Positions 1 through 21,441 of a stretch of DNA of 23,218 nucleotides are shown in pieces; position 1 is the first letter of the stretch; each line of letters opens with the position of its first letter. Below the pieces are notes generated by a model. That model worked only from the letters and a program-made list of their open reading frames with translations, was not told the origin of the DNA and did no database searches. Both the position numbers and the translations under genes were made by a program. This DNA comes from a virus: positions 1-23,218 of IMG/VR virus record IMGVR_UViG_3300020392_000088, one strand, 5' to 3'.

Positions 1-1494
1 GGTCAAGCAGGACCAGCAGCACAAGCACTGGCTGCAATAGCAGGACAAACTGCAACAGCAGAAGAAATTGCTGCTATGACACCAGCGCAGTATCAGGCAT
101 ACGAATCGCAGCAAGCCTTACAAACAGCTTTACAAAACTATTTAGCTGCCCAAGGACAATTAAGTCCTGATTCTATTGTTGACCCTGCACAAATGAACCC
201 ATTAACAGCAGCAGCATTACAACTACAAGCTGCACAAATAGGACAGCCGCAAACAGTAGATGCTCCTGACCCATTGAAGGTAACACAAGATCAACTAATA
301 TCTGGCTCTACTGTAGATCAGGGAAGAGTAGATTCTACTATAGCAAAGAACGAAGCTGCATCTGTAAAGACTGAGCTAGATACTTTGATGCAGGACTTTC
401 AAGGTGGTAATCCACCCTCATGGGCAGCAGGTGCTATGCGTAATGCAGCAGCAGCAATGGCTGCACGTGGATTGTCAGCTTCTAGTATGGCAGGTATGGC
501 TATTGTACAGGCAGGTATGGAAGCAGCACTACCTATCGCACAGATAGATGCATCCAACAAACAGGAAGTAGCTTTACTTAATGCTGAACAACGTGCCACC
601 TTCTTAGGCATGGAGTTTGATCAAGAGTTCCAAACAAAAGTAAGAAATGCAGCACGTATATCTGAGATAGCAAACATAAACTTTAGTGCAGAACAACAGA
701 TAGCACTAGAGAATGCTAGGATGGCGCAGACTGTAGACTTAGCTAACTTAGATAACAGACAAGCAAAAGTTATGGCAGATGCTGCTTTACTATCACAGAT
801 AGATTTAGCTAACTTAAACAACAGACAGGCTGCTAATGTACAGAATGCTAAGTCTTTCTTACAAATGGACTTGTCTAATTTAAGCAATGAACAGCAGATG
901 CAGGTTCTTAAAGCTCAAGAAACTTCTCAGTCTATACTAAGCGATTCTGCTGCAATAAATGCCGCACTGCAATTTAATGCTACATCCCAAAATCAAACAG
1001 ACCAGTTCTTTGCAGGACTAGGTTCACAGGTACAAAGGTTTAACGCAGAGCAGATTAATGCTATCAACCGTTTCAATGCTGGAGAGGTCAATGCTATTTC
1101 TCAATTTAACGCTGCACAGAATAATGCACGTGACCAGTTCAATGCACAGAATCACTTAATAGTTGCACAAGCAAACGCTGCATGGGCGCAAGCTATTACT
1201 ACAGCAGCTAACGCAGCAGCTAACCAAGCAAACAGAGATGCAGCACTAGTTGCAAACAATCTTACATCTACAATGTATAATAATGCTATACAACGTGAGC
1301 GTGATCTGTTAGCATGGGCATGGCAGTCTGGCGAAAGCGAAAGAGACAGAATAACAAAATTAGCAGAGGCACAAATAGACGCAAGTGGAGATGCAAATAA
1401 TCTTCTTGAAACTGCTGCTGGTAGTTTTGTTGGTGAGCTTGTTACAGGCGCAGCCGCTTATATTATCGGCAAGTACCTACCAATCAAATTATAA
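1..1494 (+). CDS. Partial virion protein with hendecad repeats
   Basis: The frame is open from the first base, so the gene begins upstream; 497 residues are visible and the first in-window ATG (76) is probably internal. The protein is very rich in Ala, Asn and Gln and looks almost entirely helical. Bases 667-930 encode four 22-residue units and bases 970-1167 encode six 11-residue units with the consensus (R/Q)FNA...NA. The C-terminal 25 residues are hydrophobic (AAGSFVGELVTGAAAYIIGK), resembling a membrane segment. It heads a co-directional run with a peptidoglycan hydrolase and large ejection-type proteins, so it is probably a virion component, perhaps an internal or DNA-conduit protein. 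I do not recognise a named family. Hendecad repeats are known to form long helical bundles, for example the DNA pilot protein H of phiX174; that comparison is mine. A tail-fibre or scaffold coiled coil is the alternative. Confidence 0.8.
   Translation, partial: GQAGPAAQALAAIAGQTATAEEIAAMTPAQYQAYESQQALQTALQNYLAAQGQLSPDSIVDPAQMNPLTAAALQLQAAQIGQPQTVDAPDPLKVTQDQLISGSTVDQGRVDSTIAKNEAASVKTELDTLMQDFQGGNPPSWAAGAMRNAAAAMAARGLSASSMAGMAIVQAGMEAALPIAQIDASNKQEVALLNAEQRATFLGMEFDQEFQTKVRNAARISEIANINFSAEQQIALENARMAQTVDLANLDNRQAKVMADAALLSQIDLANLNNRQAANVQNAKSFLQMDLSNLSNEQQMQVLKAQETSQSILSDSAAINAALQFNATSQNQTDQFFAGLGSQVQRFNAEQINAINRFNAGEVNAISQFNAAQNNARDQFNAQNHLIVAQANAAWAQAITTAANAAANQANRDAALVANNLTSTMYNNAIQRERDLLAWAWQSGESERDRITKLAEAQIDASGDANNLLETAAGSFVGELVTGAAAYIIGKYLPIKL
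667..930 (+). repeat. Four tandem 66-base (22-residue) repeats
   Basis: Units run 667-732, 733-798, 799-864 and 865-930. The last three are clearest: each begins (V/I/M)DL(A/S)NL followed by an N, Q-rich helix. The first is degenerate but keeps the Asn and Gln positions. Each unit is 22 residues, twice the 11-residue period found further downstream in the same protein. Confidence 0.85.
970..1167 (+). repeat. Six tandem 33-base (11-residue) repeats
   Basis: Units start at 970, 1003, 1036, 1069, 1102 and 1135 with no spacing change. Examples are RFNAEQINAIN, RFNAGEVNAIS and QFNAAQNNARD. Phe, Asn and Ala recur at positions 2, 3 and 4 and an NA pair at 8 and 9 in the central units. An 11-residue period fits a hendecad helical bundle. 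Confidence 0.9.
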
Positions 1495-1504
1495 GGGTAT
1501 AACA

Positions 1505-3253
1505 ATGTACGATCCAAAGTTTTCACAAAAACAAATGTATGATCAGTATGGTAGGTCACGTCCATCTACTAAAAGGACAGACCCTAAACCATCTAGGTCT
1601 AGTGGTTTTAGTGGTATGGGAGCAGACCCTGCAGAACGTTTTGGTGGTAGCCCTACAAAAGGCATAGGCGCTAAACCAGTGTCAAGACCTTTTGAACGAG
1701 GTAGTACATATGATGAAGTTCCTACGCCTACACCAAGTAAACCTGCAGATCCATCCAATATAGAAAAAGTAAAAAATAAATTTATTGACTTAATGAAATC
1801 ATTTGGTGCAGAAGATCCAAAGGAAGTAAAAGTAGATGGTAAGGCTGTATATAAAGGGCCAATGTTTAAACCTTATGAAGGTAGGATAGTAAGTTCGTAC
1901 CCCTTTATGACTATGAAAGAAGTGCGTGACAACATACCTATAGATGTTGCAGCAATGGATGCCAGAATAAGGGACGCAGTGGATTATAGTAAAGCGCCAC
2001 CCCTTGTTTATACGGCTTACGGTAGTACGTATGATGAAATACCACCTTCTAGCGCTAATAAAAACTTAGTTAAGAATGCTGTCAATACTTTCTTAAAAGA
2101 AAGAGGACTAGGTGGCAAAGAGTACACCATAAAAAGAGGAGATACTCTATCTGAGATTGCTCAAAGGGAAGGTGTTACTGTAGATGACTTAGTAAAGATA
2201 AATAAAATAGAAGACAAAGATCGTATATATACAGGTGAAACTCTTATTATACCACCACCTCAAGAAATAGAAAGAGTAAAAGATCTTGTTGATAGCGTAG
2301 ACCCAGACGCAAAGTTCTCTCAGTCTGGTGTACCTATGGATCAACGTATATTTGAACCAGAGCTAGGCGAAGACGCACAATCTGTAACAGGATATGATGA
2401 TGTGCCGCAAATGGTCAGAGGACTTATGTCAAAAACAAATATTGTTGAGGATGACTTTGATACATCAGATGTTGAATCTGATCGTGTAGCTTATGAATCG
2501 GTAAAAAAGGTTCAGAAAAGATTGAATGATCTAGGATACACAACACTTATTGGTGATCTAACAGTAGATGGTAAATTAGGTAGAGGAACAGCCAGACAAC
2601 TAAGAAAGTTTCAGGCAACAGCAGGTCTACCAGTAACTGCAGCAGCAGGGCAACCAGTTGATGAAGCTACTGAAAAGGCATTAAAGAATAATAGATTTAA
2701 TAACAAAGAAGGTAAAGACTCTACAGCTACAGTAACACCTTTGCAAGATGGACTGTTTGAAATAATAAAAGCACCTATAGCAAAAATAGAAAGTGGTGGT
2801 GAGGCTGAACCTTATGCAGCAATAGGTGGCTTTAACAACGCATATGATGGAAAATATCAACTAGGTAAAGATGCCAAGGACACCATAAAAAATAGAAGGG
2901 TAGAAGATGCAGATGGCAACATGGTAGATGTGTTTACTGCTGCAGAAAAAGTTAAACTAAATCACCCTTCTAATCGTGCTGATTATAGAGGAGATAGTGA
3001 ACTACAGGAAAAAGCTTTTAGACAGCTTACAGAATTTAATCATAGTGAATTAACTAAAAACTCTGCAAAATATAGAGCAATGGATCAAGCAAATCAACTT
3101 GCTGTTTTAGGTTATGCACACAATCAAGGCGCAGAAGCTGCACTTGAATGGTTGACTACAAGCGTAGTAGGAACTGACGCTTTTGGTACTGGGGGAGATG
3201 AGTATTCAGAAGCAATAACAGAAATATTTACAAAAGATGATATGCTAGGATAG
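1505..3253 (+). CDS. Modular virion peptidoglycan hydrolase (LysM, PG-binding, lysozyme-like)
   Basis: This 582-residue protein probably opens the cell wall, either as a virion-associated lysin during DNA entry or as an endolysin. The N-terminal 200 residues are Pro- and Gly-rich and carry a duplicated GSTYDE(V/I)P motif (bases 1700-1723 and 2021-2044). A LysM domain follows at about residues 206-255 (YTIKRGDTLSEIAQREGVT), then a PG_binding_1-type domain at about 330-400 (KKVQKRLNDLGY, DGKLGRGTARQLRKFQ). The last 160 residues look like a lysozyme or transglycosylase fold with IESGG (E429 a candidate acid) and DGKYQLG. The ATG at 1505 is preferred to upstream in-frame starts because those overlap the previous gene by over 100 bases and because AAGGG lies a few bases upstream of 1505. 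A holin-like gene follows directly, which favours a lysis role. No signal peptide is seen. Confidence 0.75.
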   Translation: MYDPKFSQKQMYDQYGRSRPSTKRTDPKPSRSSGFSGMGADPAERFGGSPTKGIGAKPVSRPFERGSTYDEVPTPTPSKPADPSNIEKVKNKFIDLMKSFGAEDPKEVKVDGKAVYKGPMFKPYEGRIVSSYPFMTMKEVRDNIPIDVAAMDARIRDAVDYSKAPPLVYTAYGSTYDEIPPSSANKNLVKNAVNTFLKERGLGGKEYTIKRGDTLSEIAQREGVTVDDLVKINKIEDKDRIYTGETLIIPPPQEIERVKDLVDSVDPDAKFSQSGVPMDQRIFEPELGEDAQSVTGYDDVPQMVRGLMSKTNIVEDDFDTSDVESDRVAYESVKKVQKRLNDLGYTTLIGDLTVDGKLGRGTARQLRKFQATAGLPVTAAAGQPVDEATEKALKNNRFNNKEGKDSTATVTPLQDGLFEIIKAPIAKIESGGEAEPYAAIGGFNNAYDGKYQLGKDAKDTIKNRRVEDADGNMVDVFTAAEKVKLNHPSNRADYRGDSELQEKAFRQLTEFNHSELTKNSAKYRAMDQANQLAVLGYAHNQGAEAALEWLTTSVVGTDAFGTGGDEYSEAITEIFTKDDMLG

Positions 3254-3256
3254 ATA

Positions 3257-3703
3257 ATGTTTGGACTACCACTAGAACTAATAACAATGCTTGGCTCTAC
3301 CGTACTAGGTGGAGTGATGTCCATATGGGGGCAGAGCATGAAGATGAAACAAGAGCAGAACAAGATGCTCATGGAACGTGCCAACGCAAACGCAAGCTTT
3401 GTAGCTGACGCACGTAACGCAGGAAAGAACGATAAACACTTTGCATGGACAAGAAGACTTATTGCATTATCTGCAGTCTTTGCTATAATAGTGTTGCCAA
3501 AGCTGGTTGCTGTGTTCTACCCTGAAGTAGGCGTATACGTAGGCTACACTGAGATACAGGTAGGCTTCTTAGATTTTATCTTTGGGCCAGGCCAAGAGGT
3601 AGTCAAGTGGCAGTATGCTGAAGGATTTGTAATAACACCACTAGATACACACATTGTGTCAGCTATTGTAGGCTTATACTTTGGTGCAGGATTTACTAAG
3701 TAG
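3257..3703 (+). CDS. Holin-like membrane protein
   Basis: This 148-residue protein has a hydrophobic N-terminus (about residues 4-24), a charged amphipathic stretch, a clear transmembrane segment after WTRRLIAL (about 66-90), and a hydrophobic C-terminal segment (about 130-146). Size, topology and position directly after the wall hydrolase suggest a three-segment holin of the gene-transfer-agent or marine-phage type that would form pores in the inner membrane. The start is preceded by TAGGATAG, in which the TAG stop of the hydrolase gene is part of the ribosome-binding site. The call rests on topology and context, with no catalytic motif to confirm it; a virion membrane-binding protein is possible. 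Confidence 0.55.
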   Translation: MFGLPLELITMLGSTVLGGVMSIWGQSMKMKQEQNKMLMERANANASFVADARNAGKNDKHFAWTRRLIALSAVFAIIVLPKLVAVFYPEVGVYVGYTEIQVGFLDFIFGPGQEVVKWQYAEGFVITPLDTHIVSAIVGLYFGAGFTK

Positions 3704-3712
3704 GATAACAAA

Positions 3713-4252
3713 ATGAAGACAATAGCTATATTTGATCAACCAATTCCAGGCCAGTCTTTGACAGGTGAACCTAAGAATAATCCTTGGGAACAGCCAGCAG
3801 AAATCTCTAGCGTAGAGGATGCTGTTGCTTATTACATAGAGGGCATGGCTAACCAAGATGTTATAGATGATCTTGCTGCTTGTTGTGAGGCAGGGCTGTC
3901 CCTCAAGCCTATAGTAAATACTATTGTAAGTGCATCAACTATGAGTGGTATTCACTCAGTGGACGTGGGTATGCTAGTCAAGCCAGTCATACATGAGTTC
4001 TTGAAACAAGCCATTACAAGTATGGGAGTAGAGGTTAAGGATGATGGTAAGGACTATCAGAAAGAAGCTGAAGAAAGAGAGCTACAACGTTTCCAAGCTA
4101 TAGTAGGTTCATACCTAAGTGATAATCCTGATGATGGCACAGACCCAGGAAAGAGAATGTTAAGTGAGTTGGTTGAAAAACAACCAGAGGAAGAAGACAC
4201 ACCAGAGGACATACCAGAAGAGAAGCCTAAAGGCTTGATGGCGAAAGGTTAA
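3713..4252 (+). CDS. Acidic hypothetical protein of the virion operon
   Basis: This 179-residue soluble protein starts after TAGGATAACAAA, so its ribosome-binding site overlaps the previous stop codon. The N-terminal part holds a Pro-rich segment (FDQPIPGQSLTGEPKNNPWE), the middle (about residues 30-115) looks like a compact helical domain, and the tail is rich in Glu, Asp and Pro and ends GLMAKG. I do not recognise a family. Its place between the holin-like gene and the two large ejection-type proteins suggests a minor virion or morphogenesis protein, or a chaperone for its neighbours. No membrane segment or metal-binding cluster is visible. Confidence 0.7.
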   Translation: MKTIAIFDQPIPGQSLTGEPKNNPWEQPAEISSVEDAVAYYIEGMANQDVIDDLAACCEAGLSLKPIVNTIVSASTMSGIHSVDVGMLVKPVIHEFLKQAITSMGVEVKDDGKDYQKEAEERELQRFQAIVGSYLSDNPDDGTDPGKRMLSELVEKQPEEEDTPEDIPEEKPKGLMAKG

Positions 4253-4256
4253 GAAT

Positions 4257-5744
4257 ATGGAATTTGATTGGAAAGCTTTTGGAGCAGCCTTTCTGGACAA
4301 GCAGACAGAGGGTATCAGAAAAAGAAGACTGAGAGGCGAAGAGTATGAAGAAGAGCAGGAAGAGCTAGCTAGAGAAAATAAAAGAGAGATAGCTAAGAGA
4401 AGACTTTTAGCAGGTGAGTATGGATCTTTAGCTCAAAAAGCTATGGCACTTGGTGCTACTAAGGAGCAAGTCATGGCTGCTATGGGTTCTGGTGCGCTCG
4501 GTATAAAAACTTTCTATGATAAACTACTAGCTGCAGTAAATCAAACAGGTATGAAAACACTTGGCCCTGCTGATGTAGAACAGATTATAGGTATGCCAGA
4601 AATATTTGAAGTGAACCCTAAATTTGTGGACATGAGTCTTCAAGAGATGGCTGACATACAATATGGTGCTGCCTTAATGCCTGGAACTGAAACAGCCGAA
4701 GTTGAAACAAGTGGCAATATACTTGCTTCTATGTTTGGTACAAACGCTATGAGTCAGGCAAAGAAAAACCTACAAGACAGAACGTTTATGGGTAAGATGT
4801 CCATAGCTGATGTAAATGAGCTTGCAAGACAAGGAGAATATAATTCTTTATTTCCTAACTTGGGTGTTAACTTTTTTGACAAAGACTTTTATGGACCAGC
4901 AACAGCAGGTGATTTCCTAAAAACTATTAGTGAGATAGAAATAGAAGCTGGTACTGGGAAGGTAGCAGAAGCTTATATTAGAAGTGCTGGTAATGAGTTT
5001 GCAGATAGGATCAATCCAAAAAGTGAAAAGTATGATGAGGCTTTTGCAAAAAGACAAAAAGAATTGGGTAGAACAATAATAGATGCGGAAGCAGACGCTA
5101 AAGAGTTTCTGATTCAAGAAAGAGCTAGAACAGTAATTCAAACTCTTGTGGATCAATATGGTCAGACTGGACTGCTTAATCATCAACCATCCGTAGATAT
5201 AATAAATAGAATTATGGGTGAAGAGTATTTGGCTGGAGAAGAAGAGTTAATAAAAAGTTTTAATCAACCAGAAAAGGAATTATCTGATAGAGAGAAAAAC
5301 CTTGGTAGCCCAGAAGCAATTAAAACTGGAATGGATGAAGCCGAAGCAAGAACACAAGCAGGTGTCATCGAACAGACGGAAGATACCCAAACGCAAACGT
5401 CCGATACAAAAACTAAAGAAACAACGATACCTTCAGAAGATTCAGACTTCACTCCTATACCAAGGCCAGAAAGTAAAGGCACGATAAAAGATGCCCTAGA
5501 TGCTGGAGGAGTAAAAGCTTGGGATAGAAAATACAAAGGTAAACTAGATCCTATTACAGGTCAAAAGATTATTGTAGAACCAAGACCTGCTGCTGGTGGA
5601 CCTAAAGACAAAGAGGTAGAGGCTGTAAATCAGTTTGGTATTAGACAACCAGGTAAAACTAAAAAAGTTACAGCGCAAGAAGAGTGGGATGTACTCTACG
5701 GAGACACACACAATCCTGATGGAACACCTGATTTAGAGGACTAA
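4257..5744 (+). CDS. Probable internal virion protein, 495 residues
   Basis: The first 60 residues are a highly charged helix (runs of Glu, Arg and Lys with RKRRLRGEEYEEEQEELARE), likely a coiled coil. The middle is mixed helical with no motif I can name. Residues around 365-395 form a Thr-, Glu- and Gln-rich linker (EDTQTQTSDTKTKETT), followed by a basic, Gly/Pro-rich C-terminal section ending DGTPDLED. It starts five bases after the stop of the previous gene, and its stop lies one base before the next ATG, so the pair is surely co-translated. By position next to the 1150-residue protein it resembles the internal-core or ejection proteins of T7-like podoviruses (gp14-gp16 equivalents), but no sequence match can be claimed. 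Confidence 0.7.
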   Translation: MEFDWKAFGAAFLDKQTEGIRKRRLRGEEYEEEQEELARENKREIAKRRLLAGEYGSLAQKAMALGATKEQVMAAMGSGALGIKTFYDKLLAAVNQTGMKTLGPADVEQIIGMPEIFEVNPKFVDMSLQEMADIQYGAALMPGTETAEVETSGNILASMFGTNAMSQAKKNLQDRTFMGKMSIADVNELARQGEYNSLFPNLGVNFFDKDFYGPATAGDFLKTISEIEIEAGTGKVAEAYIRSAGNEFADRINPKSEKYDEAFAKRQKELGRTIIDAEADAKEFLIQERARTVIQTLVDQYGQTGLLNHQPSVDIINRIMGEEYLAGEEELIKSFNQPEKELSDREKNLGSPEAIKTGMDEAEARTQAGVIEQTEDTQTQTSDTKTKETTIPSEDSDFTPIPRPESKGTIKDALDAGGVKAWDRKYKGKLDPITGQKIIVEPRPAAGGPKDKEVEAVNQFGIRQPGKTKKVTAQEEWDVLYGDTHNPDGTPDLED

Positions 5745-5745
5745 T

Positions 5746-8700
5746 ATGCCAAGTTACCTAGAAAATAAAAGGACAATGGAAGAACTGTTTGGCGGTTCTA
5801 CTGTTAGTGCTGACAGGCAAGAGGACTTTTATATAGACAAAAATACTACTCTTAAAAAAGACGATCTTATGAAGTATGAGTATCTAACTCCCATACGTTC
5901 TTACATGATAGATCGTAAAGGAGTTGGCTATAGAAACAAAGATGCCGAAGAAGTAATAGAAGATTTTGTACAGCACATGAGATACTTCAATGCTAACTCG
6001 GTTAGTACGACAGGTGAGCTTAGATTTATAAATAAGGCAGACCAAGGAACTAAAGACAGAGCAAGTAAAGCTTATCAAATATATGAACAGCTAGGTAACG
6101 TCTTTCAGAATGACGGAGCTATGGGTGCTGTTGACGGTGTAAAGGATTACATATTTGCTGCTGCTAAAGACCCAACAAACTATGTGGGTTTAATTACTGG
6201 TGGTCTTGGTAGGTTTCTTGCTGGTGGATACACACTAGCAGGTAAAAAGTTTATACAAGAGTCCGTAAAGAAAGCAGGACTAGAAGCAGCTAGACAGGGC
6301 GCAACATCTGCACAAATTAAAAAGGCTGCAGAAAAGGCTGGACTAGAGGCGGCTAGAAGAGCAGCCAAGGCTGGGCTATCTAAGAATCAATCAAAGAAAG
6401 CAGCAGAAAAAGTTAGTCAACAGGTTACCAAAGAAGGACGTAGAACTCTTATAACTGATGCTATGAGAGATCAGCAAAGACAGTTATTTGAAACAGCAGG
6501 TAGAAAGGCTGTAAAGCAAACGCTAGTAGCAGATGCAGGGTTTGCTATGCTACAAGATGGACTGGCACAGAATACTTTGATGGAAGCTGGGGCGCAGGAA
6601 CAGTTTAGTAAAACACAAACAGCGTTCTCTTCTTTGTTAGGTGGTGTAGCAGGTGCAGCACAGCTAGGCTTTGGAAAGTTTCGTGGAGTGTCAGGACTAG
6701 ATGAGCCAGAGACTACACTAGATGATGTTGCTAATTCAGTTATAAAAAACAATTCACCAATACTATCCAGGACAGATGGCAAAAAAGTTACTAAGCAAAT
6801 TCTAAAAGACGTTGAAGATTGGAACACAAAGGTAGACAGAGGATTAAAACTGGATGAAGCTAATATGCCATCCGATTTGTTTAAAAACATAGTACTAGGG
6901 GCAGATGGTAAGGGTGGACTAGCAAAGCTTATGCATGATAGGGGTATGAAGATACACTCTAATAAACTTACAGCAGATGTCCTAACAAATGTCGTTAGAT
7001 TTTTACCCGAAGAGGATCTTGCAAGCATAAATAAAGCTATGGGTAGATACACATCTTTGACACTAGGTGAAATGGCAGACACCAAGCTTATTAACCTAAG
7101 AGATTTAGTAGCTAAAAGTGCTAGTGAAGGAGCTAAAGTACTTAATGTATTGTCACAAGCAAAAAATATTGTTAACAATGGTATTGTAGCTGCTGGTTCA
7201 AAGACTAGAAAAACTTTAGAGGAGGACATAGCAGAGGCTACCAAAGAGGTAGACAATATGGATAAGTCACAGCCTTTGAAGTATGGACAGTCTGTGTGGA
7301 AGCGTCTACTTGTTTCATCCCCTGCCACTACCATGATTAACGTGGCTGGCTTTGCTCAGTACTATGTGGGCCAGTCTATGGCTGACTTGTTCAACTTCGG
7401 TATGCTAAGTTTCAAAGCTTTGAGTCAGTCAACATATGATACTGCTGCTGCTAGAGAAACATTTAGACAAGCACGTGCATACACACAGATACAATCACAG
7501 AAGCTTAGAAACTTATTAGATCCATACACTACACATGATTCATACATGAGATTCTTATCAGAGGCTAACAATGAAGCAACACGTAAGAAACTATTTGAAA
7601 CTATGTCTGGTGGTGTGGAAGTTCAAGCAGATAGATTTGGCATAAATCCTGAAAGTAAAATATTTAGAAATATAGAAGCTGGTGCTAACGCAGCAAGCAA
7701 TATATCTGGTGTACGTATACAGGATAGCTTTACTAAGTCTCAGATGTTTATGACTGAGATGGATAAATACATGCGTATCAATAAAGGTAAAACTTTAAGG
7801 GAATCTATAATAGCAGGAGATGAGCCTGAACTAGAAGTTATCCAAGGTGCGCTTGATGGTACACTCAAGTCTGTATATTCAAAAGACTACACAAATACAG
7901 AGCAGCCAGAGCTACTTAGGACTGCTGCTAAAATGGCTGAAACATTTTCTAATACCCCAGGCTTCGGTACACTTTTGCCTTTTGGTAGGTTCTTTAACAA
8001 TGTTGTAGCTACAGCTTATCAGTGGTCATTCTTGTCTACACCAGAAAACTTTTTTAGGTTTGCTAGAATCTTGTATAAGAAAGAACCTGAAGCAACAGAA
8101 TTGGATGCCTTTGCTCGTTATGCTGTAGGTAATACAGCTTTGTTTCTGTCTATGCAATTTGATGAAGAAAGAAGAGAACAAGGGTTAGATGTGTATGAGG
8201 TGGATGTAGGTGGTGGCACTATTGTAGATGCCAAGAACACATATCCATTCTCTCTATGGCTTGCTGCAGGTAGGGTACTAAACACTATGAGAAATGGTGA
8301 GCAAGTCTCAGCAGATTTACAAAGAGAGATAGGTACACAGTTAGCTGTTGGTCAGCTTGCACGTGATACACAGTTTGCTAACGATATAAATAATGCACTA
8401 GATGTGTTAACTAACGTAGACATAGACAAGAGAGCAGCAGCTATAGATGGTCTATATAAAGTTACAGGAAACTTTGCAGCAGGGTTTACCAGACCCCTAG
8501 ATGTACTAAACAAAGCTGTAGGTTTTGCAACAGGCACAGACACAGCAAAGGATGTACGTCAAGCAGATGGTATTAATACATTCACACAGACTGCTACCAA
8601 GTACATAGACAATATATTAGAAGCGTTTGTTGATAAGACGGATGCTATAACAGGTGAGGAGTTGTCTGTAGCTACTAGACAAGGAGAGGTCTATGACGTA

Positions 8701-9198
8701 AATCCTTTTGCAAGAATGTTTGGTCTTACAATACAGCCTAGCAAGACAGCTACAGAAACAGTATACTCAATGGCTGACATGGCTGACTGGAAAGCTAGCG
8801 AAAGAACTAACATACCTGCCTATGATAAAATCTTTAATGGTATGCTAGCACCGATGCTGGAAACATATACGCAACAGTTGTTAGACGATCCTAGATTCCA
8901 GAAAGCAGACATAAAGACTAAACGTGGTATGCTCAAGAAAAGAATATCTGATGTCAAGTCTAGAGTAAGAGAGAGTATGGACAGAGGATATAGCGGTTAT
9001 GAGGGACGTGTGTTAAACAAAGCAGCCCTAGCAACCAGACGCTTTAGTAAAGAGACTAGGAGACAAGCACTTCAAATGTTAAGGCGAGACTATGGTGTTA
9101 CTGGAAGACTAGAGGATCTTAACTTTAGAGAGCTTGAATTGTTTATGCGATACGCAGAATATATAAAGGATGCAGAAGAAGAAGTAGGCCGCATTTAG
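5746..9198 (+). CDS. Large internal virion (ejection) protein, 1150 residues
   Basis: This is the longest gene in the window and the last of the late arm. A Gly-rich hydrophobic stretch near residues 145-165 (VGLITGGLGRFLAGGYTLAG) is followed by an Ala/Lys-rich helical repeat (about residues 170-230). The middle is long and helical, with a possible membrane-active segment near residues 525-550 (SSPATTMINVAGFAQYYVGQ). The C-terminus is basic with many Arg-rich helices (KRGMLKKRISDVKSRVRE). The start is fixed by AGAGGA a few bases before ATG, inside the end of the previous gene. Size, helical content and position fit a podoviral ejection protein of the T7 gp16 class that enters the cell envelope ahead of the DNA. 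No lytic transglycosylase motif is evident here; the wall-degrading function seems to sit in the gene at 1505. The functional call is inference. Confidence 0.7.
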   Translation: MPSYLENKRTMEELFGGSTVSADRQEDFYIDKNTTLKKDDLMKYEYLTPIRSYMIDRKGVGYRNKDAEEVIEDFVQHMRYFNANSVSTTGELRFINKADQGTKDRASKAYQIYEQLGNVFQNDGAMGAVDGVKDYIFAAAKDPTNYVGLITGGLGRFLAGGYTLAGKKFIQESVKKAGLEAARQGATSAQIKKAAEKAGLEAARRAAKAGLSKNQSKKAAEKVSQQVTKEGRRTLITDAMRDQQRQLFETAGRKAVKQTLVADAGFAMLQDGLAQNTLMEAGAQEQFSKTQTAFSSLLGGVAGAAQLGFGKFRGVSGLDEPETTLDDVANSVIKNNSPILSRTDGKKVTKQILKDVEDWNTKVDRGLKLDEANMPSDLFKNIVLGADGKGGLAKLMHDRGMKIHSNKLTADVLTNVVRFLPEEDLASINKAMGRYTSLTLGEMADTKLINLRDLVAKSASEGAKVLNVLSQAKNIVNNGIVAAGSKTRKTLEEDIAEATKEVDNMDKSQPLKYGQSVWKRLLVSSPATTMINVAGFAQYYVGQSMADLFNFGMLSFKALSQSTYDTAAARETFRQARAYTQIQSQKLRNLLDPYTTHDSYMRFLSEANNEATRKKLFETMSGGVEVQADRFGINPESKIFRNIEAGANAASNISGVRIQDSFTKSQMFMTEMDKYMRINKGKTLRESIIAGDEPELEVIQGALDGTLKSVYSKDYTNTEQPELLRTAAKMAETFSNTPGFGTLLPFGRFFNNVVATAYQWSFLSTPENFFRFARILYKKEPEATELDAFARYAVGNTALFLSMQFDEERREQGLDVYEVDVGGGTIVDAKNTYPFSLWLAAGRVLNTMRNGEQVSADLQREIGTQLAVGQLARDTQFANDINNALDVLTNVDIDKRAAAIDGLYKVTGNFAAGFTRPLDVLNKAVGFATGTDTAKDVRQADGINTFTQTATKYIDNILEAFVDKTDAITGEELSVATRQGEVYDVNPFARMFGLTIQPSKTATETVYSMADMADWKASERTNIPAYDKIFNGMLAPMLETYTQQLLDDPRFQKADIKTKRGMLKKRISDVKSRVRESMDRGYSGYEGRVLNKAALATRRFSKETRRQALQMLRRDYGVTGRLEDLNFRELELFMRYAEYIKDAEEEVGRI
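6271..6414 (+). repeat. Ala/Lys-rich imperfect helical repeats
   Basis: Inside the 1150-residue protein, KAGLEAAR is encoded at 6271-6294 and again at 6334-6357, 63 bases apart. A third partial copy (KAGLSKNQ) begins at 6367, and KKAAEK occurs twice. The spacing of 21 and 11 residues suggests an amphipathic Ala/Lys helix. Confidence 0.6.
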
Positions 9199-10192: not shown

Positions 10193-12091
10193 CTATGTTA
10201 TATCCACTACCTCACACACGTCACCAGAGCAAGCAAATGTCTGACTCGATTTCGTGTTGTCTTCTTGTTCATACTCTGAAAGACTGTTCCAGTCAATCTT
10301 TTTTGGCATAGTCTTGAGTAAATCTTCATACTCTTCCTTGCTGCAATCTTGATAAGGAGCTTGCTGATAAGTATGGTCTGAGTGTGGTAAGAATGAAACA
10401 CCTGACATCTCGTCAAAGTGTTTGTAAACGAATGCTCCCACATCAAGCCACTCGTCATCTCGTACTGAAATTGTTACGCTTGGTTTATGCTCACACCAGT
10501 AGCGTTGGTACATAAGCCAAGTCTCTAGCTGATCAATAGCAGTCATATCGTCACGTGTCATAGCCATCGGAGGTGATTGTACTGGAAAGCTAAACACAGT
10601 TGTAGTGTCTGCTTTGAATACACACGGCTCGTTAGGTACTCCCTTGTCTATCATAAACTGTGTAAGGGGATCTTTATTATCACCTCGTACAGTACGGATG
10701 TAATATGGAGAGTGACGAGCATGTATACCACTGGCACTGTCCACCAACTGCGAGACAGTACCCGAAGGTTTGACGCAGGTAATAGCAGCAGAAGCAGGTA
10801 TATCAAGCAGAGCAGCGTATTCAGCATTAGTATCCACTGCGACATTTCGTAATCCATCTAGCACTCCTGCAAGTTTGTGGTTTTCTGTAGTCATTAGTTG
10901 GTTGTCCATGATACCTGTCAGAGACACACCAAGCAGACGCTCTTCTTCCGTATTACGTTGCCACACTTTTCGCAGGTACGGAAACTTTGTGTACGAGCTT
11001 TGGATTGTCCCAAGTATTGTGGCGAGTTTGACTTTACGCTCCAGGTCTTTAATCGTATCAGTGGCACGAACAACAACCTCCGTAAGATTACAAAACTGGT
11101 AGGGTCTAAGTATGATTTCACTGCATGGATTAGTCCCGAACTCGTGGTTAGGATCACGCCTACCATACTTCGCAGCCTGTTTCTTAGATGCTTCACGATT
11201 AAATATACCTCTCTCTCCTGACTTACTTTCTATCAAGGCAGTCCACTCACGCATGAATGTTTCGATGTCTGGCTTCTCTGTGTAGGACACACTGTTGTTA
11301 GCCAACGCCCTGTGTGCTGCTGTTTCCCACCACTGCCCTGACTTAGCGTGACGCATACGGTCATCACTAAGGTTAGACAGAGAGATCATAGCACTACGTC
11401 TTACACCACCAGACACAACTATCTGACCAATGAAACACATCAAGTCATGGCACTCCATAGAGGATAGTTTGCGTCCTTGTGCATTCTTGAATGTTTGTAC
11501 AGTAAAGTTGAACAACTCAACAAGAGGTGCAGGACCACTGGCTCTGCCACCAAACGTCTTGAGTCTAGCTCCTTGTGGACGCACACGTGACACGTTCCAC
11601 TTAGGTATCTCACCTGCCCAGAGTAGTGCAAGTATCTGTCTGTACGCTTTAGCCCAGCCCTCCTTGCTGTCCCTGACAACCACAGTAGTCTCGCTGTCAA
11701 ATAGTTCAGGCACTTCTGGTAGCTGCTGAATGAACTGACGCTCCACACTGAAGCCAACACCAGTACCACACAGTAGTATGAACATAGCTTCATCGAAAGA
11801 CTTAGGGTCATCGACTGGCAGATAGCTACAGTTGTACCCTGCTGTGTTATCCCTGTCCAACGCAGCACCACTAGTCATCATAGCTCTCATGCTTGGCATA
11901 ACATCTAAGTTAAGTATGGCTTGCTCTATCTGATTTACCCAGGAGTCGTTGCCTAGCTTCGGACGTACCACGTTGTCAACGTAGCGTCCTACTGTCTCAG
12001 CCCATGACTCACGGCCTTTGCCATCAATGTACTTGGCATAGCGTGATTGGTGTATAAATGATTGATAGTCTGTTGGTAATAAATTGCTCAT
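10193..12091 (-). CDS. nrdJ: Adenosylcobalamin-dependent (class II) ribonucleotide reductase
   Basis: This 632-residue enzyme would reduce ribonucleotides, probably triphosphates, to deoxyribonucleotides using a B12 radical, in the cytoplasm and in both oxic and anoxic conditions. The motifs of the monomeric RTPR type are intact. They are C88 in GYNCSYLP, C323 and E325 in GTNPCSEI, C334 in FCNLTEV (redox pair of C88), KPSGTVSQLVDSASG near 441-455, and a C-terminal dithiol C621/C626 in ACSGDVC. At 632 residues it is shorter than the bacterial RTPR of about 740. The ATG overlaps the stop of the upstream membrane gene (ATGA). No separate small subunit is present, as expected for class II. Marine roseophages and cobaviruses carry this class; a B12-competent host is implied. 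Confidence 0.93.
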   Translation of the reverse strand: MSNLLPTDYQSFIHQSRYAKYIDGKGRESWAETVGRYVDNVVRPKLGNDSWVNQIEQAILNLDVMPSMRAMMTSGAALDRDNTAGYNCSYLPVDDPKSFDEAMFILLCGTGVGFSVERQFIQQLPEVPELFDSETTVVVRDSKEGWAKAYRQILALLWAGEIPKWNVSRVRPQGARLKTFGGRASGPAPLVELFNFTVQTFKNAQGRKLSSMECHDLMCFIGQIVVSGGVRRSAMISLSNLSDDRMRHAKSGQWWETAAHRALANNSVSYTEKPDIETFMREWTALIESKSGERGIFNREASKKQAAKYGRRDPNHEFGTNPCSEIILRPYQFCNLTEVVVRATDTIKDLERKVKLATILGTIQSSYTKFPYLRKVWQRNTEEERLLGVSLTGIMDNQLMTTENHKLAGVLDGLRNVAVDTNAEYAALLDIPASAAITCVKPSGTVSQLVDSASGIHARHSPYYIRTVRGDNKDPLTQFMIDKGVPNEPCVFKADTTTVFSFPVQSPPMAMTRDDMTAIDQLETWLMYQRYWCEHKPSVTISVRDDEWLDVGAFVYKHFDEMSGVSFLPHSDHTYQQAPYQDCSKEEYEDLLKTMPKKIDWNSLSEYEQEDNTKSSQTFACSGDVCEVVDIT

Positions 12092-12501
12092 GTTCTGTTT
12101 CCTCTCAACGCAAAAAATAGTCCTCCAAAATACAACATGACATGAAGGTTGTCATACAATAAAACATCCCAAACACTTTCTGGTTGTCCTATCCAAATGA
12201 CACCAGTCATAATACAACAAATAGTTATACCAGAGAATCGTGTTAGCATGTCCCCTAGAGTCTTCATCCAAGACTTCATTATATCTAAGTTTAGAATACC
12301 ACCAACTAGTATGCCCAGCGCAGCACCTACTTCACCATAGGCTACGATCCACCAAACTAGGTAGGGTAAATCCCAAGACTCTGCGCCCTCCACAGTAACA
12401 GGCATCTTATCCATGCCCTGCTGAAAGAACACAACCATCAAAGGTATTCTAATTAGCCAATGACTAAATCCTGCATCGGCCATCTGTCTTAAAAACTTCA
12501 T
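12088..12501 (-). CDS. Four-segment membrane protein, DoxX-like
   Basis: This 137-residue protein has about four membrane segments: IRIPLMVVFFQQGMDK, YLVWWIVAYGEVGAALGILV, ITICCIMTGVIWI and LHVMLYFGGLFFAL. The spacing, the GMDK turn after helix 1 and the E-x-x-x-A-L-G-I-L pattern in helix 2 resemble the DoxX/DoxD family of small inner-membrane proteins, linked in bacteria to quinone or thiol redox. That assignment is by eye and tentative. It overlaps both neighbours by ATGA junctions and lies directly upstream of the ribonucleotide reductase, being the last of five consecutive membrane-protein genes. A superinfection-exclusion or membrane-remodelling role is equally possible. Confidence 0.6.
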   Translation of the reverse strand: MKFLRQMADAGFSHWLIRIPLMVVFFQQGMDKMPVTVEGAESWDLPYLVWWIVAYGEVGAALGILVGGILNLDIMKSWMKTLGDMLTRFSGITICCIMTGVIWIGQPESVWDVLLYDNLHVMLYFGGLFFALRGNRT

Positions 12502-16147: not shown

Positions 16148-18199
16148 CTATATATCAACTGTGTCAAGCCAGTTTTTTCCTATTTTTGCTTCTAAAAGCA
16201 TAGGCACGTTCATTTCAATTCCGTATGTCTCCTCTATAATTTTGTTTAAGTCTTGGTTAAGTGTCCACACCAGTGATAGCACTAGGTCTTTCTCATCGGG
16301 ATGCACATCAACCACCATAGAATCGTGTACAGTATTAACCAAACACGACTGCATATGCCGCAAGCGTTCATGCATTTCATTAAGTATCACTGGTACTACA
16401 TCACCTGTAGCAAAGCCCTGCACTGGGTAATTCTTTATCATAGTAAAGTGCGTTGGTGTGCCACTGCTACGTCTTGTCACATCAGGAAAGGCGTACTGTC
16501 TGCCTGATACGTTTGTTATCTTTAGGAATTGTAGTGCCTCTTCAGCTAACTTCTTGTGCCACCTGGCTATGCCTTTGTACTTATTGTTGAAGTGTTCGTA
16601 GTAGGTTGCTTCTGCTTTTGATCTTCCGTAACCTGTTGCTCCAAAAAGCGGAGCGAACGTGTGTTCTTTAGCTGCTTGACGTGACGTTGGTTGTCCTGCA
16701 TCAGTAATAACTTTTGCTGTGTAAGCATGTACATCGAAACCAGTTGAGATTTCTCCCATCGCTGTTTCATCCTGTGCCAAGAACGCTGCTGTCCTAAATT
16801 CGAGTTGTGCAAAGTCGGCCTCCATAATTAATCCGTTGTCAAATCTTGATATAAATACTTTCTTTACAGGGAATGTACCTCCACGAGGCATGTTCTGCAT
16901 GTTGGGGTTGCGTCCACTGAAACGTCCAGTAGCTGTAATATGTTGGGTGAGTCCAACGTGCAGGAATCCATTGGGTTTTGTATAGGCACGTATTCCGTTG
17001 ACAAAAGAAGATAGGTAAGAGCTAACAGCATTATGGCGTTTAAGATCAGAAATGAAACTAAGAGCCTCGTCCATTCTATTGTTCTTAGCAGTTGCAGATA
17101 GTACATCTAGTTCATCCTTTCCTGTGTTAAATCCATTGGCACTGACCCACTTCTTACTGGGTGCAGTAAAGCGTAGCCCTGCTACTTGCTTGCCCTCTTT
17201 TAGTTTGTATCCTTTCGCATTACAATCTTTGCATTTATTAGGTCTAGCAAACTTTGTTCCATCTTTTTTAAGTCGGTATACTTTACCCTGCCCCTCGCAA
17301 GTAGGACAGGTGTATGCCGTAGTCCTGTAGATCGGTGACGAGTTTGCTTTAACGGCATCCTTAAACTCTTCTTGTGTCGATGTGAACTCGAAGAGATCAG
17401 ACCATTCTTTTTTGTCATGTACCCTTCTGCTGAAGAGGACTTGCGACTTCTGTTCAGGTGAGCGTAGGTTGATCGGAGTGTCGCCCATAAGTTCCCTGAC
17501 TTTCTTTTGCAGCCTTGTTTCAATCTCCGCTTTCTCATTCTCAAACTCCTTTGCTACTCGCCCCAACTCTTGAAGATCGACTTTGAATCCTGTCCTATAA
17601 ATTTCGGTGAGGGTCTTACAGGTATTAAAGGTAACTCTCTTGATTGTACTAAGGGAAGATGCTTCGGGAAGTGAAAAGTCTCTCTCTTGGGCATGGAACA
17701 ACTCGCAAGTAGTAAACAAGTCATGCTTGAGATAATGACAAAGTTCCTGCAAGGGTATTTCATTTGTGTTCTTACCTTCCTTAAAATATTTCTTGAGTGT
17801 GTCATCCTTCTGTACCCCTAGTTGTCTACGTTCTGCACAAGCCTCTAAGCTTAGCCCATTTCTCTGTCCACGATCTAGTATATACTCAGCGAGCATGGTG
17901 TCATAGATGTCACCGTCATACTTGTAGCCACACTCCCACAGCCACATCAAGTCATGCTGTGCGTTGTGCATAATGAGTAGCTTGGTATTGTCCAGCGTCC
18001 ACTGTATGTCAAGTGACTGAAAGCCTGTGAAGTCTGTGAGTTCGTTGTGATCTAGTGTCTTAATAGTGAAGGTAGCTTTAGGGTCATCGGCATCCAGCAT
18101 ACCTACCTGCACCAAGTGATTACTAGGCTCGAAAGGATCTAGGTGAACCTTATCGTCACGCTTGGTGACGGTGTTCTCTACATCTAATACTAATCTCAT
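16148..18199 (-). CDS. polA: Family A DNA polymerase with 3'-5' exonuclease and a Cys4 insertion
   Basis: This 683-residue replicative polymerase has the proofreading domain at the N-terminus: D6/E8 (LVLDVEN), N79-D83 (NAQHD) and Y156/D160 (YLKHD). The polymerase domain has motif A with D462 (EADFAQLEFR), motif B R507-x3-K511-x3-F515 (RQAAKEHTFAPLFG) and motif C H625-D626-S (VHDSM). The residue equivalent to Phe762 of E. coli Pol I is Phe (F515). An insertion at residues 298-326, in the thumb-side linker, contains CPTCEGQG and CKDCNAKG, a DnaJ-like zinc-binding pattern. The gene overlaps the helicase stop by ATGA. It copies the phage genome with the adjacent helicase and primase. Confidence 0.95.
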   Translation of the reverse strand: MRLVLDVENTVTKRDDKVHLDPFEPSNHLVQVGMLDADDPKATFTIKTLDHNELTDFTGFQSLDIQWTLDNTKLLIMHNAQHDLMWLWECGYKYDGDIYDTMLAEYILDRGQRNGLSLEACAERRQLGVQKDDTLKKYFKEGKNTNEIPLQELCHYLKHDLFTTCELFHAQERDFSLPEASSLSTIKRVTFNTCKTLTEIYRTGFKVDLQELGRVAKEFENEKAEIETRLQKKVRELMGDTPINLRSPEQKSQVLFSRRVHDKKEWSDLFEFTSTQEEFKDAVKANSSPIYRTTAYTCPTCEGQGKVYRLKKDGTKFARPNKCKDCNAKGYKLKEGKQVAGLRFTAPSKKWVSANGFNTGKDELDVLSATAKNNRMDEALSFISDLKRHNAVSSYLSSFVNGIRAYTKPNGFLHVGLTQHITATGRFSGRNPNMQNMPRGGTFPVKKVFISRFDNGLIMEADFAQLEFRTAAFLAQDETAMGEISTGFDVHAYTAKVITDAGQPTSRQAAKEHTFAPLFGATGYGRSKAEATYYEHFNNKYKGIARWHKKLAEEALQFLKITNVSGRQYAFPDVTRRSSGTPTHFTMIKNYPVQGFATGDVVPVILNEMHERLRHMQSCLVNTVHDSMVVDVHPDEKDLVLSLVWTLNQDLNKIIEETYGIEMNVPMLLEAKIGKNWLDTVDI

Positions 18200-19663: not shown

Positions 19664-20456
19664 TTACCAACTCCTTTAGTTTTTCCATATCTTCAAACTC
19701 ACGATACTTTATGTCGTCTATAAGATTCATTGCTGTTGTCTTGCGTCCTGTCCACAGTTCTATCTCTCTGCGATACTCAACTGTCTTGCCTACAGCGTCA
19801 GGGTCAAGAGCTATGATAGTCTTGTCATACTCTCCTATCTTCTCAAAGTGTTTAGGGTTCATGCTAGTACCCAGGATAGCCATAGCTGTGATGTATGGTA
19901 TCTCTTGTGCCGCAACTATAGCAGACACTACATCCTCTACTATCACCAGTGTCTTGCCAATACCTATGGTGTAGTAATCGGCCTCGCCTGTGTAGCGATA
20001 CCACTTGGGGTGTTGCTTCTTACCAACTGCTCTACCCACTGCATCAATTATCCTACCATCATACTTGATAGGAAAGACAACACGTTCATCTTTTACGTCA
20101 TACATGGTGTCGCCTATTGCTATGCCCCATCGCCTTACATAGCGTTGGTACTTGGTGTGTGATGCTTTTGGTGTCACCACGTATTCAGGTATCTCCATAC
20201 TCTCCTTCGCTTTCGTTATGTTTGTATACGCACGTTGAAACTGTTGCTCACTCATGCGTAGGAATATCTCTGCTGCTGTCATGCCAGTGTCGTAGATGCC
20301 ACCAACTCTACAACCCAACTTAAAACAGTTGTACTTTATCTCACCAAATATATTGGCAACGGTGAATGTATTTCTACCTCGGCACTCAGGGCAGTCACCT
20401 CTGTGTCTCTCGCCATCCTTGAGATTAAGATTGTCAATCAACTCACGCATCTTCAT
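19641..20456 (-). CDS. Stand-alone primase (zinc ribbon and Toprim)
   Basis: This 271-residue protein has an N-terminal zinc ribbon (C22, C25 in CPECRGR; C43, C48 in NCFKLGC) and a Toprim domain with VIVEDVVSA (Glu near 171) and ALDPDAVGK (the DxD pair near 217-219). It corresponds to the primase half of T7 gp4, here separate from the helicase. It makes short RNA primers for lagging-strand synthesis. GAGG lies a suitable distance upstream of the ATG at 20456, which overlaps the recombinase by 14 bases, so integrase and primase are translated from the same message. Confidence 0.88.
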   Translation of the reverse strand: MKMRELIDNLNLKDGERHRGDCPECRGRNTFTVANIFGEIKYNCFKLGCRVGGIYDTGMTAAEIFLRMSEQQFQRAYTNITKAKESMEIPEYVVTPKASHTKYQRYVRRWGIAIGDTMYDVKDERVVFPIKYDGRIIDAVGRAVGKKQHPKWYRYTGEADYYTIGIGKTLVIVEDVVSAIVAAQEIPYITAMAILGTSMNPKHFEKIGEYDKTIIALDPDAVGKTVEYRREIELWTGRKTTAMNLIDDIKYREFEDMEKLKELVNEISSSD

Positions 20457-21357
20457 CTTGCTTACCTCTTGCCGCTAGTGCCTTGCTTGCACCACTAAAT
20501 GTGTTGACCATGTAAGGCTTGACTGATGCGGCATTCTGGTGTCCTGTCACTTGCATAATACCTGCCAAGTCAACACCACCTTCCATCATTTCTGTGACCG
20601 CTGTCCTACGTAAATCCATAGCCGTAAGCTCTTTAGGTAGATTAGCTTCTTCCAGGATCTTATTGATATGTAACGAGATTTCTTCTTTGTCATAGGGTGT
20701 ATATGCTCCTGCTCTAGGCTTCACTCTTGGTACTACGTACTCTTGAAAGCCAAACTCCTCCTTCTGCTGACGTAGCATGGTACACAAACCCTGCGATATA
20801 GGGAGATGTATTTCTGCATTACGTTTGCTTTGTGTCATATCTATTCTGCATTCGTTTAAGTCTAAACTATTCCATGTAAGAAGTCGAACATCTCCTACAC
20901 GTTGACCCCAGTCGTATGCCATATGCACAATCAAGCCAATGCTACGCCAGCGAAAGTCGCTGTAAGCTGTGTCAAGAAAGATTGACACTTGTTCACGTGT
21001 CCAGTGTACTCTCCTTGGTTTCTCAGTGACGGTCTGCACCAAAGAGATTGGATTGTGAATGAACACATCATGTCGCATGGCATGTTTCCACGCAGCAGAA
21101 AGGACACTGCGTCTGTAGTTGGCAGTACGTGTACCAACTGTCAGCCATTGCTCGTATGCTTGTGTTATGTGTCGAACCTTCAGGTTCTTACAGCGATATG
21201 CCCGAAGCATCTTGCCCTCTACCTCAGTAGTGAGTGTAGCTGACAAGTGATTATCGTAGTCTTTTTGTGAGGAGGAGGACAACCTACGATAAACATCTGA
21301 GTTACGATAGAAGTCTATCACCTCTTCCAACGTACAGTTATGCTTCGGGATATTCAT
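20443..21357 (-). CDS. int: Tyrosine recombinase / integrase
   Basis: This 304-residue protein has an N-terminal SAM-like DNA-binding region and a C-terminal catalytic domain. Visible catalytic residues are R153 (GQRVGD), a candidate K178 (QSKRN), R250 (MDLRRTAVTEM), H273 (TGHQ) and Y282 (KPYMV). The first position of the H-x-x-R box is Met, not the usual His or Lys. The start is the ATG at 21357, since AGGAGG lies eight bases before it; an in-frame ATG at 21390 would place the site inside the coding region. Most such proteins insert phage DNA into a chromosomal site, often a tRNA gene. No repressor or excisionase is seen in the window, so lysogeny is possible but unproven; dimer resolution is an alternative. 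Confidence 0.9.
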   Translation of the reverse strand: MNIPKHNCTLEEVIDFYRNSDVYRRLSSSSQKDYDNHLSATLTTEVEGKMLRAYRCKNLKVRHITQAYEQWLTVGTRTANYRRSVLSAAWKHAMRHDVFIHNPISLVQTVTEKPRRVHWTREQVSIFLDTAYSDFRWRSIGLIVHMAYDWGQRVGDVRLLTWNSLDLNECRIDMTQSKRNAEIHLPISQGLCTMLRQQKEEFGFQEYVVPRVKPRAGAYTPYDKEEISLHINKILEEANLPKELTAMDLRRTAVTEMMEGGVDLAGIMQVTGHQNAASVKPYMVNTFSGASKALAARGKQDEDA

Positions 21358-21441
21358 TACCATTTCCTCCTTACCTTCCAGTATGCCCATGATCTACTGC
21401 AATGACCATCGCCTAGCAATGTGTCCAATAGTCGCACTAGA
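21358..21441 (-). promoter_or_regulatory. Intergenic gap upstream of the recombinase, with strong RBS
   Basis: This is the largest gene-free stretch in the window (84 bases). It holds the AGGAGG site at 21366-21371 that fixes the recombinase start at 21357. A possible phage attachment site or recombinase-binding sites may lie here or near the gene. I see no convincing -35/-10 promoter and no obvious inverted repeats. Confidence 0.4.

Follow-up and report, generated by a model that had tools for sequence, protein, structure and literature searches.

The phiX174 H protein forms a decameric tube made of three hendecads (11-residue repeats) and 11 heptads, and most of the lining of its lumen consists of Asn, Gln and Arg (PMC7354561). 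Variable numbers of 11-residue units, marked by Phe or Trp, are found also in some tape measure proteins (TMPs) of siphophages (PMC3271669). The TMP of TP901-1 is composed mostly of 11-residue repeats, with some of 18, and tolerates the removal of several sets of whole repeats with little effect (PMC5099701). It is believed that TMPs are ejected and then form a channel (PMC3271669, PMC5099701). HMO-2011-type phages, considered among the most abundant and widespread groups of marine viruses, are described as short-tailed (PMC9038755), and the CRP phages are short-tailed podoviruses by microscopy (PMC6918029). The late-module proteins of these phages are annotated almost only as hypothetical, and we found in the literature no description of the passage of DNA through the envelope in HMO-2011-type phages. 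Here we describe a family of late-module proteins whose C-terminal half is built on an 11-residue lattice, the length of which varies almost exclusively in whole units.

The source phage and the hendecad gene

The window, that is the whole stretch of 23,218 nucleotides analyzed here, comes from an HMO-2011-type podophage. The same sequence is contained in a record of 56,468 bp (G001), which ends at the identical base. We found the start of the gene encoding the hendecad protein (MAKKFAGFKPETMTNKILPALGY...) at the opposite end of G001. In the window this gene is:

1-1494, plus strand: hendecad-protein gene, with the 5' end cut by the contig edge and 497 amino acids visible

The assembly of G001 is circularly permuted, and the contig ends split the hendecad gene inside a variable linker rich in Pro, Thr and Gly. 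Full-length homologs of the protein (L007-L085) are mostly 590-780 amino acids long. The gene set of G001 is of the short-tailed type, with terminase, portal/head-tail adaptor, coat, tail protein PHROG 10775 and tail fibers. A further protein matches both PHROG 5107 and PHROG 511. Among the scanned proteins of this record, none was identified as a tape measure protein.

On the minus strand of the window, positions 16148-18199 encode a family A DNA polymerase with a partial DnaJ insert (CXXCXGXG), which is a known oddity of HMO-2011-type phages (PMC6918029). The same strand encodes a DoxX-family membrane protein (12088-12501, Pfam PF07681), here in a phage genome, and a tyrosine integrase (20443-21390, PF00589). 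The integrase suggests that the phage is temperate or was formerly so.

A continuous 11-residue lattice

The initial annotation had reported four 22-residue units followed by six 11-residue units with Phe-Asn-Ala at fixed positions. The four longer units are present in frame 1 at 667-930 (IANINFSAEQQIALENARMAQT, VDLANLDNRQAKVMADAALLSQ, IDLANLNNRQAANVQNAKSFLQ and MDLSNLSNEQQMQVLKAQETSQ), and the identity at lag 22 over amino acids 201-310 gives z = 8.2 when compared to 2000 shuffles. The six shorter units, at 970-1167, read QFNATSQNQTD, QFFAGLGSQVQ, RFNAEQINAIN, RFNAGEVNAIS, QFNAAQNNARD and QFNAQNHLIVA, with z = 6.6 for the identity at lag 11 over amino acids 311-400 (2000 shuffles). Phe is fixed in all six of them and Asn-Ala in five, the second unit having Phe-Phe-Ala instead. 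The repeat is thus confirmed, and the observation is strengthened, as the repeat is larger than reported. It is not limited to ten units and extends without interruption from the ALPIA proline (nt 532) to the WAWQSG tryptophan (nt 1315). Positions 532-1314 form one continuous 11-residue lattice of 261 residues, divided into two blocks (A and B):

385-531, plus strand: conserved pre-lattice segment, LMQDFQGGN.P.WAAGAMR...RGLSASSMAG.A..QA.MEAAL, among the invariant columns of the family alignment (A1)
532-939, plus strand: block A, 136 residues on the lattice, which holds the four 22-residue units at 667-930
940-1314, plus strand: block B, a further 125 residues of this lattice, which begins at an (L)SD junction resembling a helix cap and holds the six FNA units at 970-1167
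1315-1491, plus strand: conserved WAWQSGESERDR motif and short Gly-rich hydrophobic C-terminus, with lengths that are not quantized

The hydrophobic segment that had been described at the C-terminus corresponds to this short Gly-rich stretch and falls short of a clear transmembrane helix; the highest Kyte-Doolittle mean over 19 residues is ~1.4 in the closest homolog and 0.1-1.6 across the family. At the DNA level the 33-nt units are diverged, with 33-64% identity between units, and Tandem Repeats Finder reported no 33- or 66-nt array in the window. The period is therefore held at the protein level. We also scanned 294 ORFs of 11 phages for 11-residue autocorrelation. Six members of the family ranked within the top seven, and the next-ranked protein was phiX174 H, which acts as a positive control.

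Lattice length is quantized across the family

By tblastn, we identified homologs in 27 phage records. The carriers are Roseobacter CRP, Puniceispirillum HMO-2011, Pelagibacter HTVC, Sinorhizobium phiM6, Rhizobium RHph, Vibrio CHOED, Aeromonas MQM1 and 1233 and Pseudoalteromonas Slicky01 phages, together with one spring genome. IMG/VR contains 330 close relatives, plus more distant ones, and a search of genome collections returned two loci, both in MAG contigs that are probably viral. No family of PHROGs, Pfam, NCBIfam or PDB sequences covers the hendecad protein, and the Zobellviridae phages RIO-1, ICP2 and PA11 have no detectable homolog either of it or of the 179-aa protein encoded nearby. 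One homolog (L244, MW202701.1) is annotated as 'huntingtin', evidently a misannotation of an Ala/Gln-rich hendecad protein. HMO-2011 gp25 (L001) bears an extra C-terminal domain of ~80 residues (CWVAREVYGEGDPRW...), unseen in other homologs. In the family alignment, the most conserved part of the protein is the C-terminal half.

When the distance from the ALPIA proline to the WAWQSG tryptophan was compared in 34 diverse homologs, the differences were all multiples of 11. Among the 168 complete homologs (121 distinct sequences in all), the total lattice length is 8 mod 11 in 167, with ten classes that range from 184 to 492 residues. The sole off-class lattice (L205) has a 2-residue deletion in block A relative to its closest relative. 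This lattice, with 710 residues, and that of L201, with 492, are giant. We divided the lattice at the conserved (L)SD junction to measure the two blocks separately. In the relatives, block A is 37, 59, 81, 103, 136, 147, 213, 257 or 367 residues long and block B 114, 125, 147, 158, 169 or 246, and all of these lengths are 4 mod 11. The same holds for both blocks in all 22 genomes of isolates, which added the A length of 257. As a control, we measured the flanks of the lattice: the N-terminal part has 81 different lengths spread across all residues mod 11, and the 25 lengths of the C-terminal tail are likewise spread.

The tree of the isolates requires at least seven length changes in A and at least five in B, every one of which is a multiple of 11. 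This minimum of 12 changes is unaltered after branches with support < 70 are collapsed, and the probability that all 12 are multiples of 11 is about 3e-13 if indel lengths are arbitrary. Since the DNA units of the window are so diverged, with no array reported, the phase of the lattice appears to be maintained by selection. For a straight helical assembly, lengths restricted to multiples of 11 in homologs this divergent are an unusually clean signature.

A conserved position in the late module

The gene had initially been placed with a wall hydrolase and large proteins of ejection type. The hydrolase and two large proteins do adjoin it, and the term 'ejection-type' reflects only their position and size:

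1505-3253, plus strand: wall hydrolase with LysM, PG_binding_1 and an endolysin-like C-terminus (Pfam PF01476, PF01471; PHROG 5867)
3257-3703, plus strand: 148-aa protein with hydrophobic, membrane-like segments as read from the sequence (PHROG 38283, no assigned function)
3713-4252, plus strand: 179-aa protein (IPGQSLT...), which accompanies the hendecad gene more constantly than any other, with homologs in relatives
4257-5744, plus strand: 495-aa module protein, with a positional equivalent of ~500 aa in most relatives and no match to known families
5746-9198, plus strand: 1150-aa large module protein, predicted to be nearly all helical and homologous to HMO-2011 gp22

Homologs of the 179-aa protein lie near the hendecad gene in every lineage examined (HMO-2011, CRP-207, CHOED, phiM6, MQM1, Slicky01 and HTVC115P), and in every relative examined the hendecad gene is a late-module gene upstream of this companion. 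Tail-fiber genes are followed by the hendecad gene and then by the genes for the 179-, ~500- and ~1100-aa proteins, at the end of the late module. The hydrolase or small genes intervene between the hendecad gene and its companions, depending on the phage, and in some relatives, such as CHOED, the hydrolase is missing from this position. The 495- and 1150-aa proteins are recognizable in closer relatives only; the gene for the latter is preceded upstream by the hendecad gene in 31 out of 31 loci with enough flank. Profiles of the two proteins showed no link to T7 or Zobellviridae internal proteins, and that of the 1150-aa protein matched HMO-2011 gp22 only. Its AlphaFold model is of low confidence (pLDDT 48.2), and the structural comparison of this model returned common helix packings only, with no fold assigned. 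In HTVC115P, a second protein of the module (gp45, L093 ORF from 10374) also has high 11-residue autocorrelation (z = 5.2).

Hydrophobic core and predicted structure

A simple Fourier test on the window sequence alone gave no clearly significant amphipathic period, and a family-wide phase analysis was needed to see it. Hydrophobic periodicity across the lattice is sharpest at 11 (z = 301 versus shuffles), the next best period reaching 58. The hendecad character that the initial annotation had ascribed to the repeat is borne out by a 3-4-4 spacing of the core in both blocks. In both blocks, which share one phase, phase 8 is marked by Asn, phase 3 by Gln and phase 9 by either Ala or Leu. The core occupies phases 6-9-2 in block A and 4-7-0 in block B (Ile/Val, Phe and Leu/Asn/Gln, the third position being often polar), and at the A/B junction the hydrophobic stripe shifts to a different face of the helix. 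The richness in Asn and Gln noticed at the outset is also real: the two residues account for 26.4% of the lattice, whereas 23.5% is the highest value reached by 255-residue windows in 781 other ORFs. Lys is scarce in the window protein (1.9%).

The AlphaFold monomer is helical over most of the lattice, at a low overall confidence (pLDDT 49.8), too weak for a fold to be assigned. Block B is modeled as a single helix of 128 residues, with pLDDT of about 60-68 along most of its length. With the rise of 0.15 nm per residue that an ideal alpha helix has, a straight block B would be 17-37 nm long, as computed from the lengths in the family, and a block A of 367 to about 587 residues would extend over 55-88 nm if it formed one straight helix.

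A proposed role in genome delivery and its alternatives

The protein had been proposed as a candidate DNA conduit, and our data make this reading plausible and support it in part. Taken together, the quantized lattice, the amide-rich faces, the position in the late module and the large companions make genome delivery the most likely role of the hendecad protein, with a probability that we put at roughly 0.4. In such a role, each of the two blocks of the C-terminal half would be folded into long 11/3 alpha helices that are nearly straight. The hendecad cores would probably let several copies pack side by side, which leaves faces rich in amides (Asn/Gln). The protein, probably a virion protein, would be carried in or on the particle and released together with the 179-, 495- and 1150-aa companions. 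Released copies may then assemble across the envelope, either as an elongated helical conduit or as a supporting sleeve, acting in the manner of phiX174 H or of an ejected TMP. Our data show the lattice, its quantized length, the predicted helicity and the conserved position in the module; the oligomer and its lumen, the presence in the virion, the ejection and the passage of DNA are inferred. A helical assembly that is long and nearly straight would require variation in whole units only, because any other indel would be expected to rotate the core out of register. On the lattice model, deletions of whole 11-residue units are expected to be far better tolerated than deletions of other lengths.

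Some observations count against a role in delivery. The hendecad protein has no detectable homology to any conduit protein, and its neighbors are not recognizable homologs of gp15 or gp16. Both AlphaFold models are of low confidence, the C-terminus has no clear membrane segment, and one homolog (L106) is fused to a fiber-type S74 chaperone. A block A of 367 to about 587 residues is too long for a single crossing of the envelope, and the literature on these phages returned no proteomic evidence of virion incorporation.

The fusion in L106 is one argument for a trimeric or few-helix coiled coil forming a fiber or tail appendage, namely a closed rod with no lumen, attached to the tail and with the C-terminus exposed. 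Hendecads also occur in trimeric fibrous adhesins, and the hendecad gene lies closely behind tail-fiber genes both in the source phage and in HMO-2011. The C-terminus of L106 (3809-3976) is a Peptidase_S74 chaperone domain that scores above the Pfam cut-off, the source phage has S74 on another protein of the tail-fiber region (L087), and HMO-2011 gp25 has its extra C-terminal domain. However, S74 is found on one of about 180 homologs, in a contig of 4.3 kb, and a second search returned no further case. The window protein has no Pfam match, hence no S74 or receptor-binding C-terminal domain was found in it, and nearly all members end at most ~70 residues past the lattice, with no receptor-binding domain. 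Conservation is highest in the C-terminal half, which is the opposite of host-range fibers, and the constant partners are the 179-aa and the large proteins rather than fibers. On the whole, a fiber is unlikely. The late-module position also favors a role inside the particle, as a core, spacer or scaffold along the capsid-portal axis that would organize the large proteins or the DNA in the head and form no channel after ejection. In T7-type podophages the portal carries a stack of ejection proteins (PMC8954989, PMC11440229), and a block A of up to about 587 residues could fit folded in the head, whereas it could not cross the envelope straight. Yet the same features suit genome delivery, and we hold a purely internal function to be rather unlikely.

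Repeats of 11 residues are used by apolipoproteins and synucleins, and a membrane-binding amphipathic helix of this kind would coat lipid with its 11-mers and perturb the envelope. The Gly-rich hydrophobic C-terminus would be in line with such a function. However, lipid-binding 11-mers are rich in Lys and Glu, whereas the polar faces of the hendecad protein carry Asn and Gln with little Lys, and the core of block B is a narrow 3-4-4 stripe with Phe or Ile, as expected for packing and not for a broad face in contact with lipid. These differences make a lipid-binding helix improbable. Apolipoprotein A-I is cited in the paper on TMP repeats (PMC3271669). The multiples of 11 could also be the mere product of 33-nt units that slip or cross over unequally, without any constraint from the structure. 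Duplication of units explains steps of 11 or 22, and an insert of FNA units is visible in the alignment of L110. Against this origin stand the divergence of the DNA units, the lack of a reported array and the conservation of the phase in highly divergent homologs, where a 2-residue change is the only exception among 168 and the lengths of both flanks vary freely. Steps can arise by slippage, but selection is needed to keep them clean, and we regard slippage as very improbable as the whole explanation.

Block lengths and hosts

A hairpin between A and B, which would imply equal lengths, was dropped because the two blocks vary independently. The idea that block A measures the host envelope was also dropped, since the host FZCC0040 is infected by phages with differing A (136 in CRP-207 versus 81 in CRP-3, CRP-235 and CRP-212). 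Block B is 125 residues long in 11 out of 11 isolates of Rhodobacteraceae phages, 147 in four out of four SAR11 phages and 114 in two out of two Rhizobiales phages. In the three gammaproteobacterial phages it measures 158, 169 and 125, and in the SAR116 phage 125. The SAR11 phages share B = 147 despite A = 213 or 59, and they belong to two lineages that are not sisters on the tree. Block B length is thus uniform within host groups among isolates, which we take as a lead only, because shared ancestry could account for it. A more specific form of the delivery role would be a modular hendecad ruler, that is an ejected protein with block B as a straight, amide-lined DNA tube of several helices, fixed in length and spanning the host envelope, and block A as a second, independently variable length. 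We consider this version doubtful. If it were true, the length of block B would be adapted to the host group, and a principle similar to that of the tape measure would operate without long tails.

Comparison with known systems

With T7 gp14/15/16 (PMC8954989; relatives in Peru-2 and PhiM1), the locus shares a podophage late module with small, medium and very large proteins and a wall-degrading activity. The wall hydrolase differs in being a separate LysM/PG-binding protein. The comparison with T7 gp15/gp16 put forward in the initial annotation failed at the sequence level: in profile-profile alignments the hendecad, 495- and 1150-aa proteins all had no match to gp14/15/16 (for the hendecad protein, hhalign probability < 1%, with similar values for reversed-sequence controls), and a PDB profile search of the 1150-aa protein returned none of the three. 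T7 gp14, of about 200 aa, did not stand out in the 11-residue scan. Trimeric tail fibers of the Peptidase_S74 type are likewise elongated phage proteins, and one homolog of the hendecad protein (L106) has the S74 domain in common with them; the family differs in that S74 is absent from all other homologs seen, which have no receptor domain.

The likeness to phiX174 H holds for hendecads rich in amide side chains and does not extend to homology. The two proteins share hendecads, high Asn/Gln and a long helical domain, and in both a DNA conduit is the proposed role. In H, three hendecads are followed by 11 heptads, whereas the hendecad protein has about 16 to > 60 hendecads and no heptad block, and H comes from an ssDNA microvirus rather than from a dsDNA podophage. 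Alignment with hhalign gave a probability of 0.7% (E 0.077), similar to that of reversed-sequence controls, and a search of PDB sequences with the family profile A1 returned no match.

The TMPs of siphophages, unnamed in the initial annotation, are a better precedent than phiX174 H for Phe-marked 11-mers of variable number. Like the hendecad protein, they have tandem 11-residue units with an aromatic marker at a fixed position and variable copy number, are largely alpha-helical, differ in length by whole units and are encoded in a late structural module. In contrast, the phages described here are short-tailed according to the literature and so have no long tail to measure, and the lattice is formed of two separate blocks with a switched hydrophobic stripe, with no 18-residue repeats seen. 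The TMP families in Pfam, PHROGs and NCBIfam gave no match to the hendecad protein, and TMPs diverge quickly. By the sequence comparisons made, the protein founds a new hendecad family, similar in design to TMPs and pilot proteins and a member of neither. If it lines a DNA tube, it would tie phiX174 H and siphophage TMPs together in design, within a third, unrelated type of phage.
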